NCBI RefSeq assembly: GCF_041107455.1
Contig: NZ_JBGBPY010000001.1
Span: 3,038,001-3,102,000, forward strand
Length of the DNA stretch: 64,000 bases
DNA from: Rhodanobacter humi
GTDB lineage: Bacteria > Pseudomonadota > Gammaproteobacteria > Xanthomonadales > Rhodanobacteraceae
Direction: 5' to 3'
The notes beneath the pieces are model-generated. The model had not been told where the DNA came from. It saw only the letters and a program-made list of their open reading frames with translations, and did not search any database. How positions within the stretch are numbered: position 1 is the stretch's first letter; every line of letters starts with the position of its first letter. Shown here piece by piece: positions 1 to 15,315 of the stretch. The translations under genes were made by a program, and so were the position numbers.

Positions 1-895
1 TGACGCGGAAAGTTTCAAGAACCTGATCGGTGTGGTGGATTTCGTGCTGGCCGGGCCGGGCACGTACAAGGCGCTGGGTCTGAAGCTGATCGAAGGGCGG
101 CTGCCTCAGCCCGATGACTACCGACCTGCCACCAGTTTCGCTCCCGAGGATGCGCAGGTACTGGTCACCCGCGCACTGGCGGAACACGCGTGGCCGGGCG
201 AAAGCCCGCTGGGCAAGGATTTTTGGTGCGACAAGATGCACTTCCGCGTCATGGGCGTGGTGGACCATTTCGCCCGCGCGCAGCCCAGCCAATACAACAT
301 GCAGCAGGGCGAGTGGACGGTGTTCACGCCGGTCGTGCCGGGCGGCTCGCTGGCCGGTACCTATCTGCTGCGGGCCACGCCGCAGGATGTGCAGCGCGCG
401 CTGCAGGCAGCGCGTGCCGCCGTGCCGAAGATCGCCCCCGACGTGGTGCTGGACCAAGACAACAGCAAGACCCTGGGTGACCTGCGCGCGAGCTACTTCA
501 AGACCGACCGCATCATGATCGGCCTGCTGCTCGGCGTGGTGGTCCTCATGCTCGGCGTCACCGCGCTGGGCATCGTCGGCCTTACCAGCTTCTGGGTGGC
601 GCAGCGGCGCAAGCAGATCGGCATCCGCCGTGCGATCGGCGCGACGCGGGGCGACATCCTGCGCTACTTCCAGACCGAGAACTTCCTGATTGTCACGTTC
701 GGCATCGCGCTCGGCATGCTGCTGGCCTTCGTGCTCAACGCGGTACTGATGAAGTTCTACGAGCTGCCGCATTTGCCTTTGTATTACCTGCCGCTGGGCG
801 CGCTGGCGCTGTGGGGGTTGGGCCAGCTCGCCGTGCTTGGCCCCGCGCTGCGCGCCGCGGCGGTACCGCCGGTGGTGGCGACGCGGAGCGTGTGA
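1..895 (+). CDS. ABC transporter permease, MacB/FtsX type (B0, 5'-truncated)
   Basis: The reading frame is open from base 2 at the left edge, so the N-terminus (first transmembrane helix and part of the periplasmic domain) is missing. The visible 297 residues hold the end of a MacB-like periplasmic core domain, then an FtsX-type membrane domain with three hydrophobic segments. The conserved stretch TALGIVGLTSFWV is followed by a basic loop (RRKQIGIRRAIGATRGDILR) and the ending PPVVATRSV, shared by all B-type paralogues here. Such permeases pair with a separate ATPase to drive export or mechanotransmission across the envelope. It is probably the second half of a pair whose A partner lies off the window. 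The substrate is unknown. Confidence 0.9.
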   Translation, partial: DAESFKNLIGVVDFVLAGPGTYKALGLKLIEGRLPQPDDYRPATSFAPEDAQVLVTRALAEHAWPGESPLGKDFWCDKMHFRVMGVVDHFARAQPSQYNMQQGEWTVFTPVVPGGSLAGTYLLRATPQDVQRALQAARAAVPKIAPDVVLDQDNSKTLGDLRASYFKTDRIMIGLLLGVVVLMLGVTALGIVGLTSFWVAQRRKQIGIRRAIGATRGDILRYFQTENFLIVTFGIALGMLLAFVLNAVLMKFYELPHLPLYYLPLGALALWGLGQLAVLGPALRAAAVPPVVATRSV

Positions 896-904
896 GGTGC
901 TTGC

Positions 905-1006
905 TCCCCTCTCCCTCCGGGAGAGGGGCCGGGGGAGAGGGTACGGGCTGGCCTCAGTGCCGAAAGCGCCCTCTCCCCCAACCCCTCTCCCGAAGGGAGA
1001 GGGGAG
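905..1006. repeat. CTCTCCC/GGGAGAG palindromic repeat between permease pairs
   Basis: Two inverted CTCCCTCTCC-type hairpins enclose a short core (GGTACGGGCTGGCCTCAGTG). The same design recurs at 3578 and 6265, in the equivalent spacers between the following permease pairs. It has no coding value and could fold into stable hairpins in the mRNA. Confidence 0.8.
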
Positions 1007-1026
1007 TGCAATCAGGGAGGCATGAC

Positions 1027-2334
1027 ATGTTCGGCTATTACCTCGATCTCGCCTTGCACAGCCTGAAGCGCAACAAGGCGCTCACCGCCCTGATGGTGCT
1101 GGCGATCGCGCTGGGCATCGGTGCGTCGATGACCACGCTCACCGTGCTGCACGTGCTGTCCGGCGACCCGCTGCCGGGGCGCAGCGGCACGCTGTATTAC
1201 CCGCAGATCGATCCGCGCGACAACGGCGGCTTGCTGCCGGGCAAGGAGCCGCCGGAGCAGCTCACTTACATCGACGGCCTCAACCTGCTGCATGCGAAGC
1301 GGGCGGATCGCCAGGCGCTGATGACCGGCGGTGCGGTGCCGATCCAGCCCGACTCGGCCGAGCTCGATCCGTTCTACGTGGAGGCGCGCTACACCACCGC
1401 CGACTTCTTCCCGATGTTCGGCACGCGCTTCCGCTACGGCCAGGGCTGGAACGCGGCGGACGACGAGGCGAAGGCGCGCGAAGTGGTGATCAACAGCGAG
1501 CTGAACGAACGCCTGTTCGGGGGCGCCAACAGCGTGGGTCGCACGCTGCGCATCGGGGACACCACGTTCCGCATCGCGGGCGTGCTCGACGACTGGGCGC
1601 CCAGTCCGCACTTCTACGATCTCAACACCGGTTCGTACGGCTACGCGGAACAAGTGTTCATGCCGCTGCTGACCGCGCTGGACCTGCACATGGATCACAA
1701 CGGTTCCACCGACTGCTGGGGCAACGGCGCTGGCGGCGCGGGCCATATCTATCCGGCGGCAAGTTGCGTGTGGATGCAGTTCTGGGTGCAGCTGGATACC
1801 CCGGCCAAGGCGGCTGAGTACCAGGAATTCCTGATCCATTACTCGGAGCAGCAGAAGGCGCTGGGGCGTTTCGTGAAGGCGCCGAACGTGCGCCTGCGCA
1901 ACGTGATGCAGTGGCTTTCCTACGAAATGGTGGTGCCCGACGACGTGCGCCTGCAGACCGGGCTGGCGTTCGGCTTCCTGCTGGTGTGCCTGGTCAACAC
2001 GGTGGGCCTGATGCTGGCGAAGTTCCTGCGTGGCGCGGGCGAGCTGGGCGTGCGCCGTGCGCTGGGCGCGTCGAAGCGGGCGCTGTTCGCGCAGTTGCTG
2101 GTCGAGTCCGGGGTGGTGGGCCTGGTGGGCGGCATCGGGGGGCTGCTGCTGGCCCTGCTGGGCCTGTGGGTGGTGCGGCACCGCCCTTCGGACTACGCCG
2201 CGCTGGCGCACCTGGACCCGACCATGTTGTTCACCACCTTCCTGCTGGCGGTGGGTGCGAGCCTGCTGGCCGGCCTGCTGCCAGCGTGGCGTGCCTGCCA
2301 GATCGCACCCGCCCTGCAATTGAAAAGTAATTGA
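1027..2334 (+). CDS. ABC transporter permease, MacB/FtsX type (A1)
   Basis: 435-residue permease. The start was chosen at the MFGYYLDLAL sequence shared by all A paralogues, behind an AGGGAGG ribosome site. Topology: one helix near residues 17-42, a large periplasmic domain to about 310, then three helices near 311-335, 360-382 and 400-421, as in MacB-type FtsX permeases but without a fused ATPase. The periplasmic domain has an insert beginning DCWGNG with a second Cys (AASC) just before WMQFWVQLDTP, possibly a disulfide loop, which is absent from A2 and A3. Ten bases separate it from B1, so the two are probably cotranslated and form a heterodimer. The function is inferred from family only. 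Confidence 0.92.
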   Translation: MFGYYLDLALHSLKRNKALTALMVLAIALGIGASMTTLTVLHVLSGDPLPGRSGTLYYPQIDPRDNGGLLPGKEPPEQLTYIDGLNLLHAKRADRQALMTGGAVPIQPDSAELDPFYVEARYTTADFFPMFGTRFRYGQGWNAADDEAKAREVVINSELNERLFGGANSVGRTLRIGDTTFRIAGVLDDWAPSPHFYDLNTGSYGYAEQVFMPLLTALDLHMDHNGSTDCWGNGAGGAGHIYPAASCVWMQFWVQLDTPAKAAEYQEFLIHYSEQQKALGRFVKAPNVRLRNVMQWLSYEMVVPDDVRLQTGLAFGFLLVCLVNTVGLMLAKFLRGAGELGVRRALGASKRALFAQLLVESGVVGLVGGIGGLLLALLGLWVVRHRPSDYAALAHLDPTMLFTTFLLAVGASLLAGLLPAWRACQIAPALQLKSN

Positions 2335-2344
2335 GGGGACAGCC

Positions 2345-3574
2345 ATGGAACTGCGACCGATACTTTCCACGCTGCGCCGGCACAAGACCACCGCCTGGCT
2401 GCTGATCCTGGAAATCGCGCTGACCTGCGCGATCGTCTGCAATGCGGTATTCATGATCGGCCACCGGCTGCAGCACATGCACATGTCCACCGGCATCGCC
2501 GAGCACGATCTGGTGCAGGTCCAACTGGCGGAGATCGTGCCCTCGCCCGACGTCTACGCGCGGGCCGAGGAGGATCTCGCCGTGCTGCGCCAGATACCGG
2601 GCGTGCAGGCGGTGGCGTTGACCAACCAGTTGCCGCTGCAGGGTTCCTCGTCGAACGCCGGGATCAAGCTGGATATCGCGCAACGCCAGCCCACGCTCAG
2701 CGCCGGCACCTATTTCGGCGAGAACCTGCCGCAGACCATGGGTGCGCGGCTGGTGGCGGGGCGTTACCTGCAACCCGACGAGTTCATGCATGCGGACATC
2801 GTGTTGAAGGCGCTGGCCACCGGCGACACGAAACGGCTGCCGGCGGTGACGGTGATCACGCAAGCCATGGGGCAGCGCCTGTGGCCAGGGCAGAATCCGC
2901 TGGGCAAGAGCTTCTATATCGGCCCGGTCCCGGTGCGGGTGGTCGGCGTGCTGGCGGATCTGGCGCGCGCCAATGCCTACGACGACGCCACCGCGCACTA
3001 CTCGATGATCCTGCCGCTGTTCTTCGGAGCGGACAAGGACCAGAGCTACGTCATCCGCACCCGCCCGCAGGATCGCGAAGCCGTGCTCAAGGCCGCGGTG
3101 GCCGCGCTGAAGAAGGCCGATCCGGAACGGGTGGTGACCAAGCAGCGCACCTACGACGAGCTGCGCGAGAAATTCTTCGAGAACGACCGCGCGATGGCCG
3201 GCATCCTGATCGGCGTGATCGTGGCGCTGCTCACGGTGACCGCGCTGGGCATCGTGGGCCTGGCCAGCTTCTGGGTGGGGCAACGCCGCCGCACCATTGG
3301 CGTTCGCCGCGCTCTGGGTGCCACCCGCGGCGACATCCTGCGCTACTTCCAGACCGAGAATTTTTTGCTCGCCACCTTCGGCATCGTGCTGGGCATGGTG
3401 CTGGCCTACGGCATCAACCTGTTTCTGATGCTGCATTACGAATTGCCAAGGTTGCCGGCGATCTATTTCCCGGTCGGCGCGCTGGCGCTGTGGGCGATCG
3501 GCCAGCTCGCCGTGCTGGGGCCCGCGCTGCGTGCATCCAGAGTGCCGCCGGTGGTGGCGACGAGGGCGGTTTGA
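2345..3574 (+). CDS. ABC transporter permease, MacB/FtsX type (B1)
   Basis: 409 residues starting MELRPILSTLRR, behind GGGGACA. It has an N-terminal helix (about 16-38), a periplasmic domain to about 285, and three C-terminal helices (about 287-310, 340-362, 374-395). The cytoplasmic loop IGVRRALGATRGDILRYFQT and the ending PPVVATRAV are nearly identical to those of B0, B2, B3 and B4, whereas the periplasmic part diverges. This pattern fits a shared ATPase contact surface with differing extracytoplasmic specificity. It is the partner of A1 by adjacency. Confidence 0.92.
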   Translation: MELRPILSTLRRHKTTAWLLILEIALTCAIVCNAVFMIGHRLQHMHMSTGIAEHDLVQVQLAEIVPSPDVYARAEEDLAVLRQIPGVQAVALTNQLPLQGSSSNAGIKLDIAQRQPTLSAGTYFGENLPQTMGARLVAGRYLQPDEFMHADIVLKALATGDTKRLPAVTVITQAMGQRLWPGQNPLGKSFYIGPVPVRVVGVLADLARANAYDDATAHYSMILPLFFGADKDQSYVIRTRPQDREAVLKAAVAALKKADPERVVTKQRTYDELREKFFENDRAMAGILIGVIVALLTVTALGIVGLASFWVGQRRRTIGVRRALGATRGDILRYFQTENFLLATFGIVLGMVLAYGINLFLMLHYELPRLPAIYFPVGALALWAIGQLAVLGPALRASRVPPVVATRAV

Positions 3575-3577
3575 TTT

Positions 3578-3719
3578 TCCCCTCCCCCATCGGGGGAGGG
3601 TGCCCGCAGGGCGGGAGAGGGTACGGGCTGGCCTCGGTGCCGGAAGTGCCCTCTCCCCCAACCCCTCTCCCGCAAGCGGGCGAGGGGAGTGATGAAAGGC
3701 CTCTCCCGCAGGGGGAGTC
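3578..3719. repeat. CTCTCCC/GGGAGAG palindromic repeat between permease pairs
   Basis: Several nested inverted copies of CTCTCCC and GGGAGAG surround the same GGTACGGGCTGGCCTCGGTG core as the element at 905, with an extra hairpin arm at the right. It lies between B1 and A2. Confidence 0.8.
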
Positions 3720-3737
3720 CAACCAAGGAGGCATGGA

Positions 3738-5045
3738 ATGTTCGCGTACTACCTCGACCTCGCCTTGCGCAGCCTGAAGCGCAACAAGGTGCTCACGCTG
3801 CTGATGGTGCTGGCGCTCGCGCTGGGCATCGGCGCCACGATCACCACGCTGGCCGTGTTGCGGTTGCTGTCCGGCGACCCGCTGCCGCAGAAGAGCGCGC
3901 AGCTGTTCTACCCGCAGCTGGATCCCTATCCCGCGAACCGCCCGTTCTCGCGCAGCGGCAAGCGGGTACCGTTCCTGTTGAGCTACGTCGACGCCATGAA
4001 CCTGCTGCATGCCGGCAAGGCGCCGCATCAGGCGGCGGTGGCGCTGTCGCAGGTCAAGCTGACGCCGCAGACGCAGCAGGGCAAACCGTTCTATGCGGAC
4101 GGCGTGATGACCACGGCGGACTTTTTTCCGATGTTCGACGCGCCGTTCCAGTACGGCGCGGGCTGGTCCGCGGCGGACGACGACAGCCGTGCGCAGGTGG
4201 TGGTGATCGCGAGCTACCTCAACGACAAGCTGTTCGGCGGCGCCAACAGTGTGGGCCGCATGATCCGCATCGAGGACCACGACTTCCGCATCATCGGCGT
4301 GCTCCGGCCCTGGGCGCCGCAGCCGCGCTTCTACGCGCTGCATCTGGGCGGGCGCGATTACGGCAAGGGCGAGGGGGTGTTCATGCCGCTGCAGGGTGCG
4401 CGTGCCGACGGCATTTCACCGAGCACCATGATGGGCTATGGGTCGTCGATCGATATGCAGCACCTGGAAAGCGCGCAGGCCATCTGGCTGGGCCTGTGGG
4501 TGCAACTGCCCACGGCGGCGGAGGCGGAGGCCTACCGCGAGTACCTGGGCCACTACGCGAAGCAGCAGGTGGCGCTGGGTCGCTTCCAGAAATCCGATAC
4601 GGCGCTGTCGGGCTTGATGGAGTGGCTGCGTAGCGAGCACGTGGTGCCGGACGACGCGCGTCTGCAGGCGGGGCTGGCGTTCGGCTTCCTGCTGATCTGC
4701 GTGGTGAACACGGTGGGCCTGCTGCTGGCCAAGTGCCTGCGCCGCTCGCGCGAGATTGGCGTGCGCCGCGCGCTGGGCGCCTCGCGCGGTGCGATCTTCG
4801 CCCAGTTCATGGTCGAGGCCGCCATCGTGGGCGTGGCAGGCGGCGTGTTGGGCCTCGTCTTCGCCGAGTTGGGGCTGTGGGGCATCCGCCATCAGCCGGC
4901 GCAGTACGCCAGCCTCGCGCACCTGGACCTGTCGATGTTCGCGTTCACCTTCGTGGTGGCGCTGGCAGCCAGCCTGGTCGCTGGCCTGCTGCCTGCATGG
5001 CGCGCCTGCGTGGTGGCGCCGGCTCCGCAGTTGAAAGCGAGTTGA
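3738..5045 (+). CDS. ABC transporter permease, MacB/FtsX type (A2)
   Basis: 435 residues beginning MFAYYLDLALRSLKRNK after an AAGGAGG site. The layout matches A1: one N-terminal helix, a large periplasmic MacB-like domain, and three C-terminal helices with the loop REIGVRRALGASRGAIFAQ. The periplasmic loop before LGLWVQLPT differs strongly from A1 and A4 and lacks their paired cysteines. Four bases separate the stop from the B2 ATG cluster. It probably forms a heterodimeric permease with B2. The substrate cannot be read from the sequence. Confidence 0.92.
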   Translation: MFAYYLDLALRSLKRNKVLTLLMVLALALGIGATITTLAVLRLLSGDPLPQKSAQLFYPQLDPYPANRPFSRSGKRVPFLLSYVDAMNLLHAGKAPHQAAVALSQVKLTPQTQQGKPFYADGVMTTADFFPMFDAPFQYGAGWSAADDDSRAQVVVIASYLNDKLFGGANSVGRMIRIEDHDFRIIGVLRPWAPQPRFYALHLGGRDYGKGEGVFMPLQGARADGISPSTMMGYGSSIDMQHLESAQAIWLGLWVQLPTAAEAEAYREYLGHYAKQQVALGRFQKSDTALSGLMEWLRSEHVVPDDARLQAGLAFGFLLICVVNTVGLLLAKCLRRSREIGVRRALGASRGAIFAQFMVEAAIVGVAGGVLGLVFAELGLWGIRHQPAQYASLAHLDLSMFAFTFVVALAASLVAGLLPAWRACVVAPAPQLKAS

Positions 5046-5055
5046 GGAGATGAGC

Positions 5056-6261
5056 ATGGAAATCCGACCGATACTCGCCAGCCTGCGCAAGCACCGCATC
5101 CCGGCCACCCTGATCGTGCTGGAGATCGCGCTGGCCTGCGCGGTGCTGTGCAACGCGGTGTTCATGATCGGCCAACGCATGGCCGACATCCACTGGCCGA
5201 ACGCGATCGACGAGCAGGGCATCTCGGTGATTACGGTGAACGGCACCGACCCCGGGCACGCCGCCAGCGACATTCCGCGCGACCTCACCGCCCTGCGCGG
5301 CATCGCCGGGGTCACGGCGGTGGCGGCGGGCACCAGCATGCCGCTCGACCAGAATCCGGCGCTGTCAGGCTTCACCACCACGCCGGACGGCAAGACCACG
5401 GTGAACAGCTCGATCTACTTCCTCGGCCGCGGCGGCCCGCAGGCGCTCGGCCTGCATCTGCTGGAAGGGCGCTTCTTCAACGACGACGAATATGCCGACA
5501 GCGGCTTCAAGGGCTTCAACTCCACCGGCCACGTGCTGCTGGTCACGCAAAGCGACTCGCAACGCCTGTGGCCGAACCAGAACGCATTGGGCAAGGTCCT
5601 GTACACCAATGGTCGCAGCTGGACGGTGGTTGGCGTGGTCGCCGACGTGCTGGCGCAGGATCCGAAGTTCAGCGGGCCGGGCGGGCGCTATTCCACCGTG
5701 TTCTTCCCGCTGCAACCGGATGGGGCGATGGGTGACTATGTGCTGCGCAGCGCGCCGCAGGATCGCGCGCGCGTTCTGCGCGAGGCGATGGACACGCTGA
5801 GCAAGCTGGAACCGGGCGCGGTGCTGCAGGGTGCGACTTATGCCGGCATGCGCGGCGACTATTTCGCCGACACCCGCAGCATGGTGTGGATGCTGATGCT
5901 GGTGTGCGTGGTGATGCTGGCGGTCACTGCGTTCGGCATCGTCGGCCTCACCAGTTTCTGGGTCGGCCAACGGCGGCAGCAGATCGGCATCCGCCGCGCG
6001 GTGGGCGCCACCCGCGGCCACATCATGCAGTACTTCCAGACCGAGAACTTCCTGCTAAGCACCGCCGGCGTGGTGCTCGGCATGCTGCTGGCGTTCGGCA
6101 TCAACCTGTACCTGATGAGCCGCTACGAGATGAGCCGCATGCCCTGGTACTACCTGCCGGTCAGCGCCGTCGCACTGTGGCTGCTCGGCCAACTCGCCGT
6201 GCTCGGCCCCGCTCGCCGCGCCGCGGCGGTGCCGCCCGTGGTGGCGACGCGGTCGGTTTGA
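5056..6261 (+). CDS. ABC transporter permease, MacB/FtsX type (B2)
   Basis: 401 residues from the second of two close ATGs. GAGGAG at 5044-5049 is six bases from the ATG at 5056 but abuts the ATG at 5050, and MEIRPILASLRK aligns with B1. The order is one N-terminal helix, a periplasmic domain, and an FtsX domain with three helices ending PPVVATRSV. The basic loop IGIRRAVGATRGHIMQYFQT is conserved with the other B paralogues. It is the partner of A2 and of the same export-type family. Confidence 0.92.
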   Translation: MEIRPILASLRKHRIPATLIVLEIALACAVLCNAVFMIGQRMADIHWPNAIDEQGISVITVNGTDPGHAASDIPRDLTALRGIAGVTAVAAGTSMPLDQNPALSGFTTTPDGKTTVNSSIYFLGRGGPQALGLHLLEGRFFNDDEYADSGFKGFNSTGHVLLVTQSDSQRLWPNQNALGKVLYTNGRSWTVVGVVADVLAQDPKFSGPGGRYSTVFFPLQPDGAMGDYVLRSAPQDRARVLREAMDTLSKLEPGAVLQGATYAGMRGDYFADTRSMVWMLMLVCVVMLAVTAFGIVGLTSFWVGQRRQQIGIRRAVGATRGHIMQYFQTENFLLSTAGVVLGMLLAFGINLYLMSRYEMSRMPWYYLPVSAVALWLLGQLAVLGPARRAAAVPPVVATRSV

Positions 6262-6264
6262 TTT

Positions 6265-6420
6265 TCCCCTCCCCCTCCGGGGGAGGGTGCCCGCAAGGGC
6301 GGGAGAGGGTACGGGCGGAGCGTGGCGTTGCGCGCTGGCCGAACCCTCTCCCCCAACCCCTCTCCCGCGGGCGGGAGGGGGGAGCAAGGCATGGCCTCTC
6401 CCGCGAGCGGGAGAGGGGAG
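6265..6420. repeat. CTCTCCC/GGGAGAG palindromic repeat between permease pairs
   Basis: An enlarged version of the elements at 905 and 3578 with at least three hairpin arms, in the spacer between B2 and A3. The core GGTACGGGCGGAGCG has drifted from the first two copies. Confidence 0.8.
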
Positions 6421-6440
6421 TTCAATCAAGGAGAGATGGG

Positions 6441-7754
6441 ATGTTCGGCTACTACCTCGACCTCGCGCTGCGCAGCCTCAAGCGCACGCCGATCCTCACC
6501 GGCCTGATGGTGCTGGCGATCGGCCTGGGCATCGGCGCGTCGATGACGATGCTGACCGTGCTGCATGTGATGACGGATGATCCGCTGCCGGGGCGCAGCG
6601 CGCAGCTGTACACGCCGCATCTCGATCCCTTGCCGCTCGACTACAAACAGGGCGGCGACGGCCCCGATGCCAGCGACAACCTCACTTGGCCCGATGCGAT
6701 GGCGCTGCTCAAGGCGCATCGCGCCGTGCGGCAGGCGGCGATGGCGGGCGGCTCGCTGCTGCTGCGCCCGGCAGGCGCAGGACTGCGACCGTTTAATGTG
6801 GATGGCCGCTATGCGACGGCGGATTTTTTCGCGCTGTTCGGCGTGCCGTTCGAACGCGGCAGCGGCTGGAGCGCGGCGGACGATGCGGCCAGTGCGCCGG
6901 TGGTGGTGCTGGCCGACACGCTGGCACGCAAGTTGTTCGGCGCAGCGAATGCGGTGGGGCGCATGGTGCGGCTGGGCGAGCACGACTACCGCGTGATCGG
7001 AGTGACGCAGGATTGGCAGCCATCGCCCATGTTTTACGCGGATGCCTCGGCCAAGCGCTACAGCGATGGCGACAAGTTCTTCCTGCCGCTGTCGACCGCC
7101 GTGGCCCAGAAGCTGGATGTCAACGGCAACTTCAGCGGCTGGGGCGAGGATCATGCCGAAACGCGCATGGTCAGCCCGACCACCAGCTGGCTGCAGTTCT
7201 GGGTGCAATTGGACACCCCTGCGCAGGTGGCGGCCTATCACCAATACCTGATCGACTATTCCGCGCAGCAGAAGGCGCTGGGCAGCTTCCAGCGCCCGCC
7301 GACGAGCGCGAAGCTGTATGGCCTGATGGGCTGGCTGGCGCACGAGAACCTGGTGCCGAACGATGTGCGCCTGCAACTGTGGCTGGCGCTGGGCTTCCTG
7401 TTCGTTTGCATGCTCAACATCGTGGCCTTGCTGCTGGCGAAGTTTCTGCGCCGCAGCGGCGAGATCAGCGTGCGCCGCGCGTTGGGGGCGAAGCGGCGCG
7501 ACATCTTCCTGCAGCTCGGCATCGAGTCCGCGCTGATCGGCGTGGCTGGTGGCGCCTTGGGACTTGCCATCGCCCAGCTGGGTCTGTGGAGCATCCGCCA
7601 GCGCCCGGACGACTACGCGAAGTTGGCGCAGATGGACGCATCAATGTTGCTTGGCACGCTGGTGCTGGCTGTGCTCGCCGGCGTGCTGGCCGGCCTGCTG
7701 CCAGCGTGGCGTGCCTGCAGGGTGCCGCCGGCGCTGCAGTTGAAAGCCATGTAG
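6441..7754 (+). CDS. ABC transporter permease, MacB/FtsX type (A3)
   Basis: 437 residues beginning MFGYYLDLALRSLKRTP after AAGGAGAG. It has the A-type arrangement of one N-terminal helix, a periplasmic core of about 270 residues and three C-terminal helices with the loop GEISVRRALGAKRRDIF. The periplasmic loop before WLQFWVQLDTP has no cysteines. The stop codon TAG is the first three bases of a TAGGAGCGCGCCCTG palindrome, so the gene ends exactly at a repeat. It is probably paired with B3. Confidence 0.92.
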   Translation: MFGYYLDLALRSLKRTPILTGLMVLAIGLGIGASMTMLTVLHVMTDDPLPGRSAQLYTPHLDPLPLDYKQGGDGPDASDNLTWPDAMALLKAHRAVRQAAMAGGSLLLRPAGAGLRPFNVDGRYATADFFALFGVPFERGSGWSAADDAASAPVVVLADTLARKLFGAANAVGRMVRLGEHDYRVIGVTQDWQPSPMFYADASAKRYSDGDKFFLPLSTAVAQKLDVNGNFSGWGEDHAETRMVSPTTSWLQFWVQLDTPAQVAAYHQYLIDYSAQQKALGSFQRPPTSAKLYGLMGWLAHENLVPNDVRLQLWLALGFLFVCMLNIVALLLAKFLRRSGEISVRRALGAKRRDIFLQLGIESALIGVAGGALGLAIAQLGLWSIRQRPDDYAKLAQMDASMLLGTLVLAVLAGVLAGLLPAWRACRVPPALQLKAM

Positions 7755-7794
7755 GAGCGCGCCCTGCGCGCGATGGAGCCGGCGTCGCCGGCTT
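7752..7794. repeat. TAGGAGCGC-type repeat with adjacent hairpin
   Basis: TAGGAGCGCGCCCTGCGCGC is followed by a second small hairpin (GAGCCGGCGTCGCCGGCTTC). It begins on the stop codon of A3 and fills most of the A3-B3 gap. It is related to the GTAGGAGCG family found elsewhere in the window. Confidence 0.6.
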
Positions 7795-7817
7795 CTGCTT
7801 TGGAGACAGGCACGATC

Positions 7818-9071
7818 ATGCAAATCGGACCGATTCTTTCCACCCTGCGTCACCACAAGCTCACTGCCAGCCTGCTGACGCTGCAGGTGGCCTTCACCTG
7901 CGCCATCGTCTGCAACGTGGCCTTCATGGTGGTGAATCGGGTGCGCCAGGTAAGCCTGCCGAGTGGACTCGCCGAGAGCGAGCTGTCGGTGTTGAAAGTT
8001 GCCGGGATCGACCAGGGGGAGAATCCGCAGGCGCGACATGCGATGGATCTGGCGGTCCTGCGTGCGATTCCCGGCGTGCAAACGGCGGTGGCGGTGGACA
8101 GCCTGCCGCTCGGCCGCGACGATTCCACCTATGGCACCTGTGGCAGCCAGCAGGCGTGGAACCACGCGATGGCGGTGCGCTCGCTCAATGGCGTGGACGG
8201 CTGCGTGAATCCAAGCGTCTACAGCGGCTCGCCGGGCGAGTTGAGTGCGTTGGGCCTGCGACTGGCCGCCGGGCGCGATTTCCTACCGGACGAATACGCA
8301 CAGGCAAAACCCGGCTACGTCGCAGCCAACGTACCCAGCGCCATCATCACCCGCAGTCTGGCGACGAAGTTGTACCCCGGACGGGACGCGCTGGGGCAGA
8401 GCCTCTACATGGGCGGGCGCTCGCCAATGCGCATCGTCGGTGTGGTGGAAAACTTGTTGCGCCCGCGCCTGCGCGAGCCCGGTGTCAATCAATACAGCGT
8501 GTTGCTGCCCTCGGTTCCCGGCGATCATGCGGTGGCCTACGTGCTGCGCAGCGCGCCGCAGGATCGCGAGCGCGTGCTCGCGTCGGCGGTTGAAACGTTG
8601 ACGCGGCTCGATCCCAATCGCTTGATACCGCCGGATGGCGTGCGCACCTACACCCAGATCCGCCACGACTACTTCCAGCGCGACACCACCATGATCGGCC
8701 TGCTGATCGCCTCCGCGCTGGGCCTGCTGTTCGTCACCGCGCTGGGCATCGCGGGGCTGGCGAATTTCTGGGTGCAGCAGCGCACGCGCAGCATCGGCAT
8801 CCGCCGTGCCATCGGCGCCACGCGCAGTGACATCCTGCGCTATTTCCAGACCGAGAACTTGCTGATCGTCACCGCCGGCATCGTGCTGGGCGTGTTGCTA
8901 GCGGTGCTGCTCAATCTGCTGCTGATGACGCACTACGAGTTGCCGCGCCTGCCGCTGTGGTACCTGCCGGTTGGTGCGCTGGTGCTGTGGGCGCTGGGGC
9001 AGCTCTCGGTGCTGTCGCCGGCGCTGCGCGCCGCGCAGGTGCCGCCGGTGGTGGCCACACGGTCAATATGA
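7818..9071 (+). CDS. ABC transporter permease, MacB/FtsX type (B3)
   Basis: 417 residues from MQIGPILSTLRHHK, the in-frame ATG that aligns with the other B starts; an earlier start at 7773 would run through repeat sequence. It has one N-terminal helix, a periplasmic domain with a Cys-containing insert (STYGTCGSQQ, then DGCVNPS) not seen in B1 or B2, and an FtsX domain of three helices ending PPVVATRSI. It is the partner of A3, but the 63-base gap is wider than in the other pairs because of the repeat. Confidence 0.9.
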   Translation: MQIGPILSTLRHHKLTASLLTLQVAFTCAIVCNVAFMVVNRVRQVSLPSGLAESELSVLKVAGIDQGENPQARHAMDLAVLRAIPGVQTAVAVDSLPLGRDDSTYGTCGSQQAWNHAMAVRSLNGVDGCVNPSVYSGSPGELSALGLRLAAGRDFLPDEYAQAKPGYVAANVPSAIITRSLATKLYPGRDALGQSLYMGGRSPMRIVGVVENLLRPRLREPGVNQYSVLLPSVPGDHAVAYVLRSAPQDRERVLASAVETLTRLDPNRLIPPDGVRTYTQIRHDYFQRDTTMIGLLIASALGLLFVTALGIAGLANFWVQQRTRSIGIRRAIGATRSDILRYFQTENLLIVTAGIVLGVLLAVLLNLLLMTHYELPRLPLWYLPVGALVLWALGQLSVLSPALRAAQVPPVVATRSI

Positions 9072-9084
9072 CGAACGGAGGCTC

Positions 9085-9166
9085 TGTAGGAGCGGCTTCA
9101 GCCGCGATGCTCTTGTACGGCACTGCGAAAAGGCAAGAAGCATCGCGGCTGAAGCCGCTCCTACAG
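9085..9166. repeat. REP-type palindrome pair (GTAGGAGCGGCTTCAGCCGCGA)
   Basis: Two inverted copies of TGTAGGAGCGGCTTCAGCCG separated by about 35 bases, the classic twin-REP arrangement. It lies in the spacer between B3 and A4, where the earlier spacers carry the CTCTCCC family instead. Confidence 0.9.
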
Positions 9167-9196
9167 GAATGAGGCATTGAATAAGGAGTACGTGGA

Positions 9197-10507
9197 ATGT
9201 TCGGCTATTACCTCGACCTCGCGCTGCGCAGCCTGAAGCGCACGCCCATCCTCGCCGGCCTGATGATGCTGGCGATCGCGCTGGGTATCGGTGCATCGGT
9301 CACCATGCTGGCGGTGTTGCACAACCTGTCGGGCAACCCGCTGCCGGGGCGCAGCGACGTGCTGTTCCACCCGCAGGTCGATCCGCGGCCGGCGGACCTG
9401 CCGGGTGCGACGGAGGAGCCGCTGGACGATCTCACCTATGTCGATGCGGTGAACCTCTACCAGCTCGGCATCGCGCCACGTCGCGCGGTGATGAGCAGCA
9501 ACTGGCTGCCGGTGCGCAAGGATGCGCCGGACAGCCCGCTGGCGATGTTCACCGATCGCGCCACCACCGCCGACTTCTTCGCGATGTTCGGCGTGCCCTT
9601 CCTTTACGGTTCGGCCTGGTCGGCGCAGGACGATGCGAACCACGCGCAGCTGGTGGTGCTGTCGCGGGCGATGAACCAGAAGCTGTTCGGCGGCGAGAAC
9701 AGCGTGGGCAAGATCCTGGTGATCGCCACCAAGACTTTCCGCGTGGCGGGCGTGATCGACGACTGGAACCCGCAGCCGCGCTTCTACGACATCAATGACG
9801 GTCCCTTCGCCGACGCCGAGCAGATGTATCTGCCGTTCTTTACCTGGCTCGATCTGCCGCAGGATTACGGCTACGGTCCCATGCGCTGCTGGGGCAACGA
9901 TCCGAACGCGGGCACGCACGACCCCAAGGCCAAGCAATGCACCTGGGCGCAGTTCTGGGTGCAACTGGACACGCCGGCGCAGGTGGCCGACTACCGCGCG
10001 GCGCTCACCCAGTACAGCGCGCAGCAGCACCAGCTGGGCCGCTACCAGCGCGAACCCAACGTGCGCCTGCACAGCCTGCTCGATTGGCTGGACGTCAAGC
10101 ACGTGATCCCGGTGACCGTGCGGATGCAGACCTGGATCGCCTTCGGCGTGCTGCTGATCTGCATGGTCAACACGGTGGGCCTGATGGTGGCGAAGTTCCT
10201 GCGCAAGTCGGGTGAGATCGGCGTGCGCCGCGCCTTGGGCGCCTCGCGTCGCGCGGTGTTCCTGCAGTGCCTGGTCGAGGCCGGCGTGGTGGGTGTGGCC
10301 GGCGGCTTGCTCGGTCTGCCGCTGGCTTGGCTGGGCCTGTGGATGGTGCGCCAGCAGCCGGTGAGCTTTGCCGCGTCCGCGCATTTCGATCCTTCCATGC
10401 TGGGCATTGCGCTGGCGCTGGCCGTGTTGTCGGCACTCGCCGCCGGCGTGTGGCCCGCCCTGCGCGCCTCGCGCGTGGCCCCCGCCCTGCAGGTGAAATC
10501 GCTATGA
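9197..10507 (+). CDS. ABC transporter permease, MacB/FtsX type (A4)
   Basis: 436 residues starting MFGYYLDLALRSLKRTP after AAGGAG. It has the same fold plan as A1-A3. Like A1 its periplasmic domain has a two-cysteine insert (RCWGNDPNAG, then AKQCTW) directly before AQFWVQLDTP. The last helices carry EIGVRRALGASRRAVF. The stop overlaps the B4 start by four bases (ATGA), the tightest coupling in the array. It is probably a heterodimer with B4. Confidence 0.92.
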   Translation: MFGYYLDLALRSLKRTPILAGLMMLAIALGIGASVTMLAVLHNLSGNPLPGRSDVLFHPQVDPRPADLPGATEEPLDDLTYVDAVNLYQLGIAPRRAVMSSNWLPVRKDAPDSPLAMFTDRATTADFFAMFGVPFLYGSAWSAQDDANHAQLVVLSRAMNQKLFGGENSVGKILVIATKTFRVAGVIDDWNPQPRFYDINDGPFADAEQMYLPFFTWLDLPQDYGYGPMRCWGNDPNAGTHDPKAKQCTWAQFWVQLDTPAQVADYRAALTQYSAQQHQLGRYQREPNVRLHSLLDWLDVKHVIPVTVRMQTWIAFGVLLICMVNTVGLMVAKFLRKSGEIGVRRALGASRRAVFLQCLVEAGVVGVAGGLLGLPLAWLGLWMVRQQPVSFAASAHFDPSMLGIALALAVLSALAAGVWPALRASRVAPALQVKSL

Positions 10508-11721
10508 GGATCCTCTTCCAGATCCGCCCCATTCTTGCCGCGCTGCGCAGCCACAAGACGGCGGTGCTGTTGCTGGTGCTGGAGATCGCGCTGACCATGG
10601 CGGTGCTCGGCAACCTGGTGTTCATCGTGTACGGCACCATGCAGCGCTCGCATACGCCGACGGGTGTGGCGGAAAGTCAGATCGGCGTCATCCAGAGCAT
10701 TGGCGTGATCGGCCAGGACAATCCCGGCACGGCCGCCGGCAATATAGCCGTGCTGCGTGCCGTTCCCGGCGTGATGGAGGCGGCCTATGGCGGACCACCG
10801 CTTTGGTACGCGGGCGCCAATCCGATTTTCCTCGACCCCGCGCGCAAGCAGGCGGCGGCGCAGGCCTACGAGTTCCAAGGTAGCCAGGGTTTGGTCAGCA
10901 CGCTGGGCCTGCGCGTAATCCGTGGGCAGTTGCTGCAGCAAGACCAATTGCCGGTAGCGGCCAAAATTACCGACAGCACGGAGTTTCCGGTGTTGGTGAC
11001 CCAAGCGCTGGCCGCGCATCTGTTTCCCTCTGGCGGCGCGCTCGGCCACTTGATCTACGACGGTGGCAGCAATCCCATGCGCATCGTTGGCATCGTGGAT
11101 CACCTGCGAGGCGGCATCACCGGGCGCACCAACGACGACTATTCCATCGTGGCCGAATACTTGGTGGGTGCGCAGAACCTTGGCGGAGGTTTCATGATAC
11201 GCGTCAAGGATCCCGCGCAGCTGCCGCGAGTGCTGCGTGCCGCCGCCGCCGCCCTGCAGAAGGCCAACCCCGGCCATGTGCAGAGCAAGCTGTTCACCAT
11301 GGCCGAGCTGCGTGCAAACTATTTCAAGAGCGACCTCGCCGCCGGCCGCATGCTGGTGGCGATCATCTTCATTCTGCTGGTGGTCACCGCATTGGGCGTG
11401 AGCGGGCTGGCCAGCTTCTGGGTGCAGCAGCGGAGAAGGCAGATCGGCATGCGCCGCGCGCTGGGCGCCACCCGCGGCGACATCCTGCACTACTTCCAGA
11501 TGGAAAACCTGCTCATCGTCAGCGGTGGCGTGCTGCTGGGTGCGCTGTTCGCCTATGCGCTGAACCTGTTCCTGATGCACCGCTTCGAGCTGGCGCATTT
11601 GCCGTCGCATTACCTCGTGGTCGGCGCACTGGCACTGTGGCTGCTCGGCCAGCTCGCCGTGCTCGGACCCGCGTTGCGCGCAGCGGCGGTGCCGCCGGTG
11701 GTGGCGACGCGCAGCGTGTGA
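10504..11721 (+). CDS. ABC transporter permease, MacB/FtsX type (B4)
   Basis: 405 residues, start ATG overlapping the A4 stop (MRILFQIRPILAAL). It has the B-type layout with an N-terminal helix, a periplasmic domain and a C-terminal FtsX domain with loop IGMRRALGATRGDILHYFQM and ending PPVVATRSV. It is the most diverged B periplasmic domain. It closes the permease array; 88 bases downstream the response regulator begins on the same strand. Confidence 0.92.
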   Translation: MRILFQIRPILAALRSHKTAVLLLVLEIALTMAVLGNLVFIVYGTMQRSHTPTGVAESQIGVIQSIGVIGQDNPGTAAGNIAVLRAVPGVMEAAYGGPPLWYAGANPIFLDPARKQAAAQAYEFQGSQGLVSTLGLRVIRGQLLQQDQLPVAAKITDSTEFPVLVTQALAAHLFPSGGALGHLIYDGGSNPMRIVGIVDHLRGGITGRTNDDYSIVAEYLVGAQNLGGGFMIRVKDPAQLPRVLRAAAAALQKANPGHVQSKLFTMAELRANYFKSDLAAGRMLVAIIFILLVVTALGVSGLASFWVQQRRRQIGMRRALGATRGDILHYFQMENLLIVSGGVLLGALFAYALNLFLMHRFELAHLPSHYLVVGALALWLLGQLAVLGPALRAAAVPPVVATRSV

Positions 11722-11809
11722 TGCGCGGAAATTTTCATGTACGTAGGCCAGTGGTCATGGCAACCTTTTCAACCGGAGCCGCATCCATGCGGACATGTGC
11801 AGGAAACCC

Positions 11810-13144
<1,335 letters not shown>

Positions 13145-13205: not shown

Positions 13206-13514
13206 ATGGATCATCGAACGTTGCCGGCGTTGCTCCTTTCCCTGTTTTGCGCGGGTGCATGCGCGCAATCGGCAGTTGCGCCGGTTGCGCAGCATCCGCG
13301 CCTGCCGGGAGCCACGGCGGGCGCGGTGGCCGACAAGGTCCAGTTCCACTTCAAGGACGGCGACAGCCCCGGCATGCGTTGGGCAAGGCAGATGGGGCAG
13401 GGCGCGGCGCGCGTCGTGGCGCAGGATCACAAGATGACGAACCACACGCTGGTGCAGTACGGACGCCCCGGCGTGGAGTGCAAGGTCTCGGCCATGAAGC
13501 CGGAGTGCCCGTAG
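13206..13514 (+). CDS. small exported protein with C-terminal C-X8-C
   Basis: 102 residues, start ATG behind AAGGAA. It has an N-terminal signal peptide (LPALLLSLFCAGACA, with a possible weak lipobox AGAC), then a charged soluble part, ending GVECKVSAMKPECP. The two terminal cysteines are spaced C-X8-C with Pro two before the second Cys, exactly as in the next gene. I recognise no family. It lies between the response regulator and the kinase on the same strand, so it may be a periplasmic modulator or target of that pathway; this is inference. Confidence 0.7.
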   Translation: MDHRTLPALLLSLFCAGACAQSAVAPVAQHPRLPGATAGAVADKVQFHFKDGDSPGMRWARQMGQGAARVVAQDHKMTNHTLVQYGRPGVECKVSAMKPECP

Positions 13515-13589: not shown

Positions 13590-13898
13590 ATGCGAACTTC
13601 ACGCCTCGTTGCCCTGCCGCTGTGCCTGCTGGCCTTCGCAGCCGTGGCGCAGACGGCGCCCGACCAGTGGGCGCGCGTCGCGCCTTCCGCCAGTGCCGCC
13701 GCTCCGCACGACTATGCCGTGCACGCGGACAAGCCCTCGCCGTTCAAGTTCAAGGAATCGCGCAAGACCTGGGAGAAGGAGCCGCCGCCGCCGCGCGCGA
13801 ACGACCAGAACGCGGTGATGGGCACCGGGCGCGCCTGGCAGAACGGCCAGCCGCCGGTGAGCTGCGCGCAGACGCCGCACGATCCGGCATGCCGTTGA
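13590..13898 (+). CDS. small exported protein with C-terminal C-X8-C (second copy)
   Basis: 102 residues with a signal peptide (RLVALPLCLLAFAAVAQ). The mature part is rich in Pro, Lys and Ala and ends PPVSCAQTPHDPACR, repeating the C-X8-C spacing and the Pro-X-Cys ending of the preceding 102-residue protein. The rest of the sequence is hardly alike, so the two are either old duplicates or convergent. The start follows CAGGAG. It lies 31 bases before the kinase gene, and cotranscription is likely. Function unknown. Confidence 0.7.
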   Translation: MRTSRLVALPLCLLAFAAVAQTAPDQWARVAPSASAAAPHDYAVHADKPSPFKFKESRKTWEKEPPPPRANDQNAVMGTGRAWQNGQPPVSCAQTPHDPACR

Positions 13899-13929: not shown

Positions 13930-15315
13930 ATGTGGCGCCGCCTGAATTCGCTGCAGTTTCGGCTGACCCTGCTGCTGGCGGTGGCCGCGGTGGCCGGCGC
14001 GCTGGTCTACGTGGGCCTCACCCAGTGGCCGCTGCCGCAGTTGTTCGACTGGCTGCACAAGGATTTGTCGGTGTCGTTGCGCACGCCGGCGCAACTGGGC
14101 ATGTACGGTGGCCTCGTGGTCAGCGCGTTGGTACTGCTGCCGCTGGCCTGGTGGCTGGCATATCTGGTGATGTCGCCGCTGAGCCGCCTGCTGCGCGCGC
14201 TGGAAGGCGCGGTGGCGAGCTACCGCGACGGCGATTTCAGTTTCTCCATCGCGGCACGCCGCAGCGACGAGTTGGGCGAGCTGATCCGCATGCACAACGC
14301 GCTGGGCCAGACCTTGCGCGAGCAGCGTCAGCACCTGGTGCAGCGCGAGCTGCTGCTGGAGACGGTGGTGCAGAACACGCCGGTGGCGCTGGTGCTCACC
14401 GACGGCAACGGCCGCGTGGTCTATTCCAACATTGCCTCGCGCCACTTGTTCAACGAGGGCAAGAGCCTCAACGGGCTGGACTTCGCCGAGTTGCTGACCG
14501 AGGCGCCGGAGGCGTTGTCGCGCGCGGTGCAGGGCGGCGAGGACGCGCTGCTCAGCGTGGAGATGGACGGCAGCGAGGAAACCTTCCACCTGTCGCAGCG
14601 CGCGTTCCGCCTGCAGGGACGGCCGCACCGGCTGCACCTGTTCCGGCGCATGACGCGCGAGCTGTCGCGGCAGGAAGTGGCGACCTGGAAGCGGGTGATC
14701 CGGGTGATCAGCCATGAGCTCAACAACTCGCTGGCGCCGATCTCTTCGCTGGCGCATTCCGGCGCCGAGCTGGCGCGGCGCGGCAACCTGGAGCGCCTGC
14801 CCGGCGTGTTCGCCACCATCGGCGAGCGCGCCAAGCATCTGCACGGCTTCATCGCCGGCTACGCCAGCTTCGCCAAGCTGCCGGCACCGCAGCTGCAGAC
14901 GGTGGAGTGGGAACCGTTCCTTGCCTCACTGGCGTTGCATTGCCATTACCGGCTTGCCGCGCCGGCACCTGCGCATCCCGGCCGTTTCGACCCGGTGCAG
15001 ATCGAGCAGGTGCTGATCAACCTGATCAAGAACGCGCACGAATCCGGTGGCGCGGAGGACGAGGTAAGTCTGACCCTCCTCGATGCCGGCAGCGAGCTGC
15101 GCATCGAGGTGGCCGACCGCGGCCCCGGCATGAGCGAGACCGTGCTGGCACAGGCGCTGCTGCCGTTCTATTCCACCAAACGCTCCGGCACCGGCCTCGG
15201 CCTTGCGTTGGCGCGCGAGATCGCCGAGGCGCATGGCGGCCGCGTGCTGCTGGCCAACCGCGAAGGCGGCGGCCTGCGCGTGAGCCTGCGCCTGCCGCAG
15301 ATCGGTTCGCGCTAG
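13930..15315 (+). CDS. membrane sensor histidine kinase, NtrY-like
   Basis: 461 residues. Two membrane helices (about 10-30 and 60-85) enclose a short periplasmic loop of roughly 30 residues. Then follow a HAMP-like linker, a PAS domain (about 140-240), the phosphoacceptor region with His262 in VISHELNNSLAPI, and an HATPase domain (N box LINLIKNAHES, G boxes ADRGPGMS and GTGLGLALA). The HELNNSLAPI motif matches the NtrY-like kinases that pair with sigma-54 activators, so the regulator at 11810 is the obvious partner. The tiny sensor loop suggests it senses through another membrane or periplasmic protein, perhaps the permeases or the two small proteins. Confidence 0.93.
   Translation: MWRRLNSLQFRLTLLLAVAAVAGALVYVGLTQWPLPQLFDWLHKDLSVSLRTPAQLGMYGGLVVSALVLLPLAWWLAYLVMSPLSRLLRALEGAVASYRDGDFSFSIAARRSDELGELIRMHNALGQTLREQRQHLVQRELLLETVVQNTPVALVLTDGNGRVVYSNIASRHLFNEGKSLNGLDFAELLTEAPEALSRAVQGGEDALLSVEMDGSEETFHLSQRAFRLQGRPHRLHLFRRMTRELSRQEVATWKRVIRVISHELNNSLAPISSLAHSGAELARRGNLERLPGVFATIGERAKHLHGFIAGYASFAKLPAPQLQTVEWEPFLASLALHCHYRLAAPAPAHPGRFDPVQIEQVLINLIKNAHESGGAEDEVSLTLLDAGSELRIEVADRGPGMSETVLAQALLPFYSTKRSGTGLGLALAREIAEAHGGRVLLANREGGGLRVSLRLPQIGSR

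Follow-up and report, generated by a model that had tools for sequence, protein, structure and literature searches.

The question raised by this locus is what a bacterium does with many parallel membrane permeases, and what drives them. In a 64,000-nucleotide stretch of the 4.15 Mb genome of Rhodanobacter humi (G000:C1:3038001-3102000, hereafter the window), MacB/FtsX-type permease genes of two kinds, A and B, follow one another head to tail. Taking into account the genes that surround them and the same locus in relatives, we put forward, with slightly better than even confidence, a MacAB-TolC-like machine in which one motor would serve interchangeable permease cassettes, probably for peptides, with a regulon controlled through sigma-54.

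The preliminary description of the window had reported four complete A-B pairs plus the end of a fifth B gene, and had placed an ATPase and an adaptor left of the window. Both statements held, and the array turned out to be larger. The FtsX matches extended leftwards past the window edge, the full array comprising seven A-B pairs, that is, 14 MacB-type permeases, on one strand at G000:C1:3030703-3049721, of which the nine genes of the window are the right-hand part. The ATPase and the adaptor were present on the left in one copy each. The gene order was adaptor, ATPase, TolC-like channel, A1 B1 to A7 B7, response regulator, two small proteins, and kinase (Table 1). Shared protein ends had also been described, and this stood for the genes inside the window, where all four A proteins start with MF(G/A)YYLDLAL and all five B C-termini are PPVVATR(S/A)(V/I). 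Outside the window, A1 starts with MFAYYFQLGL, B1 ends in SPVEATRSV, and B2 in PPVTATRAA; the signatures thus allow some variation.

Those relatives of the adaptor that carry a name indicate a position of the source genome in or next to Rhodanobacter. The adaptor was matched at E up to 1e-60 in 113 of 117 genomes of the family, and the loci of 51 relatives were read together with that of the source genome (41 over 27-40 kb and 11 over 20 kb). Since these 52 loci were selected via the adaptor gene, its presence in all of them is due to the selection. All had the arrangement adaptor, ATPase, (AB)n, with strict alternation of A and B and none of the 250 pairs out of order. The pair number n, whose comparison across relatives had been suggested, ranged from 1 to 12 (n = 1 in 12 loci, 2-4 in 14, 5-7 in 16, and 8-12 in 10), a single pair being presumably the ancestral state. 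Five or more pairs, which the preliminary description considered unusual, were common in the family (26 of the 52 loci), although A-like genes are rare in the wider class, where 6 of 185 genomes, counting the source genome, have one at E up to 1e-60. At the level of the order, with scoring limited to 8 per genome, an A-like gene was matched at 1e-100 in 106 of 200 genomes, and outside the family there was mostly one per genome and at most 6. A single ATPase position and a single adaptor stood at the array head in 52 of 52 loci (in G069 the ATPase was matched in two pieces), and no ATPase match was found between the pairs in the loci read. The regulator lay downstream of the last B in 51 loci, sometimes after other genes, and the kinase was present in 49, the three without a kinase match being among the 11 loci read over 20 kb only. 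Other genes were seen in some loci: an S33-type secreted hydrolase inside the permease array of three congeners (L004:12940-14097, G082, and G106; one scanned), and in several others, downstream of the last B and ahead of the regulator, a secreted DUF885 protein (L050:4918-6717 and others; by eye, one scanned).

The FtsX domain (PF02687) was detected in all 14 permeases and MacB_PCD (PF12704) in 12, B3 and B7 giving no match. When two A and two B proteins were compared with the NCBIfam ADOP profile (TIGR03434), A covered positions 7-401 and B positions 411-801, with scores of 110-186 bits that fail the curated cut-off of 622. By sequence, the two kinds are homologous to the halves of a duplicated MacB-type permease, A to the first and B to the second. 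AlphaFold models of A4 and B4, obtained as single chains from 77-member alignments, had a predicted local distance difference test (pLDDT) score of 84 and 94, respectively. MacB of Acinetobacter (5gko) was the best PDB match for both, and profile searches likewise ranked MacB first. An A-B pair accordingly resembles a MacB-type permease dimer whose two chains differ from, and presumably associate with, each other. The ATPase is encoded apart from the permeases, with no fusion, and its top NCBIfam match was DarD (256 bits against a cut-off of 375, failed). The adaptor passed the RND_mfp model (127 bits, cut-off 94.9) and failed both the MacA equivalog model (56.9 against 342) and DarC (78 against 450), and the channel of the source genome passed type_I_sec_TolC (289 against 225). 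The Lol models remained below their cut-offs (LolD 219.5 against 307.75; LolC 45.6 against 473). PADLOC matched only the ATPase (8 families, best mad3 at 107 bits), the regulator (5, best RtcR-type at 321 bits), and one permease (19.6 bits); these were taken as generic ATPase and AAA+ matches, and anti-phage defence was rejected.

The source genome holds a second system (L094, G000:C1:1424001-1440000), comprising an adaptor, a long permease frame that overlaps the frame of an ATPase, two frames of double permeases (824 and 1125 aa), a sigma-54 regulator, and a kinase. The other FtsX-type permeases of the genome (L095 to L097) are a pair at 1652504-1654907, a single one at 422802, and 981796-983481; unlike the array pairs, these have an ATPase-like frame close by.

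How conservation is distributed along the permeases bears on whether they could share a motor. Averaged over the paralogs of the source genome, identity in A was 0.67 for the N segment, 0.42 for the periplasmic domain, and 0.575 for the C domain; the corresponding values in B were 0.53, 0.30, and 0.62. As means over the within-genome paralogs of all 52 loci, near-constant 10-residue blocks were located at residues 321-350 of A (0.72-0.85) and 301-340 of B (0.73-0.76), in addition to the B tail. By comparison with MacB, the loop formed by these residues is expected to face the ATPase. At a C-domain identity of 0.70-0.75, the periplasmic domains of B were much less alike between paralogs (0.33) than between reciprocal-best orthologs (0.50), a set biased upward by the way it was chosen; for A, the gap at equal C identity was small. 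The 12 single-pair genomes, for which no ortholog has to be chosen, pointed in the same direction (A 0.57 at C identity 0.64; B 0.46 at 0.67). Among B comparisons with a C identity of at least 0.88, the periplasmic identity was at most 0.55 in 90 of 290, against 3 of 244 for A, and the reverse pattern (periplasm at least 0.85, C domain at most 0.70) appeared in 0 of 41 and 0 of 65. The ratio of nonsynonymous to synonymous substitution rates (dN/dS), calculated on reciprocal-best pairs from four genome pairs with tree distances over 0.8 left out, was 0.14-0.47 in the periplasmic domains and 0.08-0.24 in the C domains, the former being higher in all four. It had been claimed that the periplasmic domains differ and that the cytoplasmic loops and C-terminal FtsX domains are nearly constant; the periplasmic domains and the loops behave in this way, and the C-terminal domains do not (57% identity in A, 62% in B). 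With no ATPase found for individual pairs and the periplasm clearly less conserved than the C domain, the idea of a shared motor with divergent specificities is supported, the specificities themselves being presumed to differ.

The pairs also behave as units. The A-to-B gap had a median of 10 nt (n = 249) and the B-to-A gap of 62 nt (n = 196). In the 26 genomes with at least 5 pairs, the between-pair distances of A and of B were correlated (p ≤ 0.05 by permutation) in 21 for the periplasm and in 22 for the C domain. A tree of joined pairs was divided into 28 clusters at one cut, or 18 when the cut was looser, and the large cassette clusters span genera, their order being roughly conserved with gains, losses, and shuffles. 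Between G029 and G045, the adaptor, ATPase, regulator, and kinase were 99% identical and six cassettes were 92-100% identical per domain. Cassette 6 was a different allele (periplasmic identity of 0.62 in A and 0.48 in B), and cassette 8, missing from G045, was joined in G029 directly after a conserved B-gene end. Along the DNA, identity was about 95% up to a point some 150 nt into A6, where it dropped to about 62%; it rose to 79-89% late in B6, was 64% at the junction, and again 88-97% in A7. Of all bins, the one with the final 15 residues of B had the greatest excess of identical codons (ratio 1.44). In the cases looked at, cassettes were gained, lost, and replaced as A-B units; judging from this genome pair and the codon signal, the swapping would probably occur by homologous recombination between the conserved A start and the conserved B end. 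Concerted evolution of the C domains was mostly rejected, their nearest neighbour being in the same genome for none of 237 A and for 9 of 238 B, with a local exception in pairs 4 and 5 of G054 (C identity 0.93, periplasm 0.29).

A sigma-54-like promoter (at least 13 of 15 points) was found at -50 to -79 nt of the adaptor in 51 of 52 loci, the best one of G116 being at -219; a score of 13 anywhere in the stretch was reached by 16 of 1040 shuffled controls and 25 of 1040 random windows. About 80 nt upstream there is a palindrome, TGTCCGCGGACA; of 14 aligned loci, 12 have it in exact form, and G041 and G054 have its last base changed. With a -24/-12 promoter, an upstream palindrome, and an NtrC-type regulator, the locus has the makeup of a sigma-54 two-component operon, the binding of the regulator being putative. 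The palindrome occurs four times in the source genome, and one further copy has an equally spaced promoter. The composite of both elements was present in 89 of 114 genomes, and its reversed control in none of the 114. Among 150 listed sites, 65 precede an array adaptor, 57 a gene of a small peptide family, and at most 28 something else. We took 20 further regions of this type, of 5 kb each, from 17 genomes. In three genomes, detached A-B genes lie directly behind the site (one pair in L196 and L213, and A-B-A as far as read in L195) with no ATPase or adaptor match in the 5 kb, which supports a motor shared in trans. A TolC gene follows the site in L210 (G011), whose array has no TolC gene. Nine regions contain peptide frames (L199, L201, L203, L207, L208, L209, L211, L212, and L214), and two (L202 and L205) a beta-lactamase-family frame 100-211 nt beyond the site (only that of L205 was scanned), preceded in L205 by a peptide match containing a stop; the remaining regions show other genes or none that is clear. 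Sigma-54 and the regulator of the array would act at these sites. Apart from them, the palindrome was located in several genomes near genes that, judged by eye, encode a TetR-type regulator and/or TolC, with no paired sigma-54 promoter (G000:C1:1580179 (L180), L184, L186, L188, L190, and L191), and a top-scoring sigma-54-like promoter at about 17182 of the window has no palindrome and lies 47 nt before a 384-aa frame.

The peptides encoded behind these sites have in common the head MK(F/Y)E..ML..LF.AC..VC.L.L..M and differ in their tails, which often end in C-x8-C-P-R. In 19 aligned members of 45-72 aa, the head was more conserved than the tail, and about twelve had, by eye, the two-cysteine tail. 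No convincing Pfam or NCBIfam match was obtained for the family (best E of 0.3 and 0.0097, one member each), which was found in 67 of 111 genomes with up to 7 matches per genome. In the source genome, two tandem MKFE-family peptides at G000:C1:1776673-1777099 (L178) are located behind an array-type promoter, divergent from an M16 peptidase. A second family of small proteins, whose head is signal-like and whose tail has two cysteines, is encoded between the regulator and the kinase in 24 of the 40 loci with several pairs and in none of the 12 with one, as counted by a sequence pattern that look-alikes escaped; an extra copy outside the array locus was present in one of 8 matching genomes out of 21 searched. 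In ten kinase sequences judged by eye, about 10-30 residues separate the two N-terminal hydrophobic stretches.

The sequences directly give the gene content, the single motor, the alternation and variable number of pairs, the module swaps in the cases looked at, the promoter-like sites, and the repeated palindrome-promoter sites with genes behind them. On this basis the sharing of the motor is well supported, and we infer heterodimers of A and B and the use of the one ATPase by all pairs. A single ATPase, together with one adaptor and one TolC-type channel, would then be common to many heterodimers, each of them a specificity module whose cytoplasmic loops would fit the common ATPase and whose periplasmic domains, most of all that of B, would differ. 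The pairs would compete for or alternate on the single motor, each handling its own periplasmic ligand, and in this sense they would differ in substrate. A signal would pass through the kinase and the regulator to the sigma-54 promoters, by which motor, adaptor, channel, permease pairs, and small peptides would be produced together: the two-component system of the array would switch the operon from the single promoter before the adaptor, and would also activate distant genes, namely, extra A-B pairs, the TolC gene of one genome, and the small peptide family. The likeliest job would be peptide handling at the periplasm, most simply the export of the head-sharing peptides, which is favoured because it links the array most simply to the peptides encoded behind the same sites; the peptides would thus be among the substrates. 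A precedent is Escherichia coli MacAB-TolC, which exports a small disulfide peptide from the periplasm. It is possible, as a tentative extension, that the whole constitutes a secretion system built from cassettes and dedicated to small-peptide families, with channels and peptides both varied and used for signalling to or competing with neighbours.

Several observations weigh against this proposal. A TolC-like gene between the ATPase and the first A was present in only 13 of the 52 loci. The periplasmic dN/dS, as an average in the four genome pairs, was nowhere above 1, and positive selection on these domains was not found in that form. The located peptide genes sit away from the array, some of the weaker peptide matches contain internal stops, and the heads might anchor the peptides in the membrane instead of being signal peptides. 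The occurrence of peptides in 33 of the 37 genomes with several pairs and in 2 of the 12 with one pair (Fisher p 7e-6, relatedness ignored) speaks for the proposal; against it, four multi-pair genomes are devoid of them (G006, G024, G042, and G084) and the two single-pair genomes carry two each. In those 37 multi-pair genomes, the number of pairs and the number of peptides were uncorrelated (Spearman 0.07, p 0.67), and one peptide per pair is unsupported.

The main rival to peptide export is defence against foreign peptides, which we consider rather unlikely: the shared-motor array would protect against many peptide antibiotics or envelope-active compounds of soil competitors, the kinase sensing damage, the pairs clearing different compounds from the periplasm, and the peptides acting as stress-induced helpers. 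The MacB-type fold agrees with it, as do the swapping of cassettes, the fact that no cargo gene was recognised within the arrays, and the near absence, by eye, of a periplasmic domain in the ten kinases. BceS-like kinases, which sense through a transporter, have almost no extracytoplasmic loop. Peptidase-like genes in or beside the system (DUF885, the S33-type hydrolase, and the M16 peptidase divergent from a peptide gene) and the beta-lactamase-family frame downstream of two regulon-type sites point the same way, but the 57 sites that precede small peptides would be superfluous for a pure efflux pump. A different role for these peptides, as inner-membrane subunits or regulators docking on the permeases or the kinase and not as cargo, is in our opinion unlikely. 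Their small size, their more conserved head, their several copies in many genomes, and the lack of a convincing Pfam or NCBIfam family would be in line with docking, yet a mere anchor would not need the two-cysteine tail, and the copy number of the peptides does not follow that of the pairs.

Two further explanations concern the number of pairs. That they are tandem duplicates with one function, kept for dosage, is very improbable: the head-to-tail order and the occasional neighbours of the same class (a-a, e-e, o-o, and d-d) would be expected from it, but the nearest neighbour of a domain was in the same genome in at most 9 of 238 cases for any domain, and the cassette classes are common to several genera. 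Least credible of all is an array driven by intergenic palindromic repeats or an integron-like element. Inverted repeats do occur at all six B-A junctions of the source genome, and 5 of the 12 exact genome-wide copies of the core 23-mer fall in the array; however, while 5 of 6 junctions here carry the CCTCTCCC/GGGAGAGG type, none of the 6 in the nearest relative does, and the overall count is 20 of 196. Given this absence in the nearest relative, the junction repeat is regarded as decoration, and repeats as the engine of expansion are largely refuted; for the integron-like variant, no search aimed at an integrase or attachment site was made.

Table 1: Features of the array locus. Positions are those of the window unless preceded by G000:C1.
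Feature	Position	Strand	Remarks
Adaptor	G000:C1:3026873-3028144	same strand as array	left of window
ATPase, 241 aa	G000:C1:3028417-3029142	same strand as array	left of window
TolC-like channel	G000:C1 about 3029111-3030538	same strand as array	left of window
Permease B3, 3' part	1..895	+	gene start at G000:C1:3037678, left of window; FtsX match 3038536-3038868
B3-A4 junction with CCTCTCCC/GGGAGAGG inverted-repeat element	896..1026	+	same type at 3575-3737 and 6262-6440
Permease A4 (MacB_PCD + FtsX)	1027..2334	+	AlphaFold (AF2) model, top PDB match MacB 5gko
Permease B4	2345..3574	+	AlphaFold (AF2) model, top PDB match MacB 5gko
Permease A5	3738..5045	+	
Permease B5	5050..6261	+	
Permease A6	6441..7754	+	
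Permease B6	7818..9071	+	
Permease A7	9197..10507	+	
Permease B7	10504..11721	+	4-nt overlap with A7
Sigma-54 response regulator (receiver, AAA+, Fis-type helix-turn-helix)	11795..13144	+	
Small secreted-looking protein 1, 102 aa, between regulator and kinase	13206..13514	+	no Pfam match
Small secreted-looking protein 2, 102 aa, tail C-x8-C-R	13590..13898	+	no Pfam match
Histidine kinase, very short periplasmic loop by eye	13930..15315	+	

We know of no settled account of how MacB-type pumps choose their substrates. With up to twelve permease-pair variants per motor and swaps between near-identical loci, specificity could be mapped here by comparing or exchanging pairs. The locus further suggests that common soil bacteria (Rhodanobacter, Dyella, Luteibacter, and Frateuria) have a small regulon that includes an unnamed peptide family. 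Tandem permease arrays in Bacteroidota may be a related case. In the titles and abstract openings of the open literature, covered by searches several of which were narrow and with subscription papers outside the scope, we found no description of the array, the regulon, or the peptide family; the locus is a variant of the MacB-type exporter whose regulon and peptides were not found described there.

Among known systems, the array resembles MacAB-TolC (MacB, type VII ATP-binding cassette transporters) in its FtsX/MacB_PCD permeases, its closest solved fold, MacB, its HlyD-type adaptor, and its TolC-type channel. According to PMC5985334, the permutations known in the superfamily include a separate ATPase and permeases that are heterodimeric. 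The array differs from MacAB-TolC in having its ATPase separate, two unlike permeases in each pair, as many as 12 pairs for one ATPase, and a sigma-54-type promoter. With ADOP it shares the two halves of the profile, matched by A and B, respectively, but its permease is split into two genes and accompanied by an ATPase, an adaptor, and a channel. LolCDE also combines two unlike FtsX-type permeases with one separate ATPase, whereas the array has an adaptor, a channel, and multiplied pairs, and the Lol models score far below their cut-offs. The darobactin exporter DarBCD, a peptide exporter by model name, provides the best match of the ATPase (DarD) and one of the adaptor (DarC); however, none of the DarB, DarC, and DarD models passes its cut-off and the array permease is split, and no search for darobactin genes was made. 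Importers with a shared ATPase, to which the group II energy-coupling factor (ECF) transporters likewise belong, are architecturally unrelated to exporters of the array type. The array would work like them in running several specificity parts from one ATPase, as described for MceG (PMC9947336) and MsmX (PMC5730181). It differs from them in that they work in the import direction and their parts do not stand in one tandem array with an adaptor and an outer-membrane channel.

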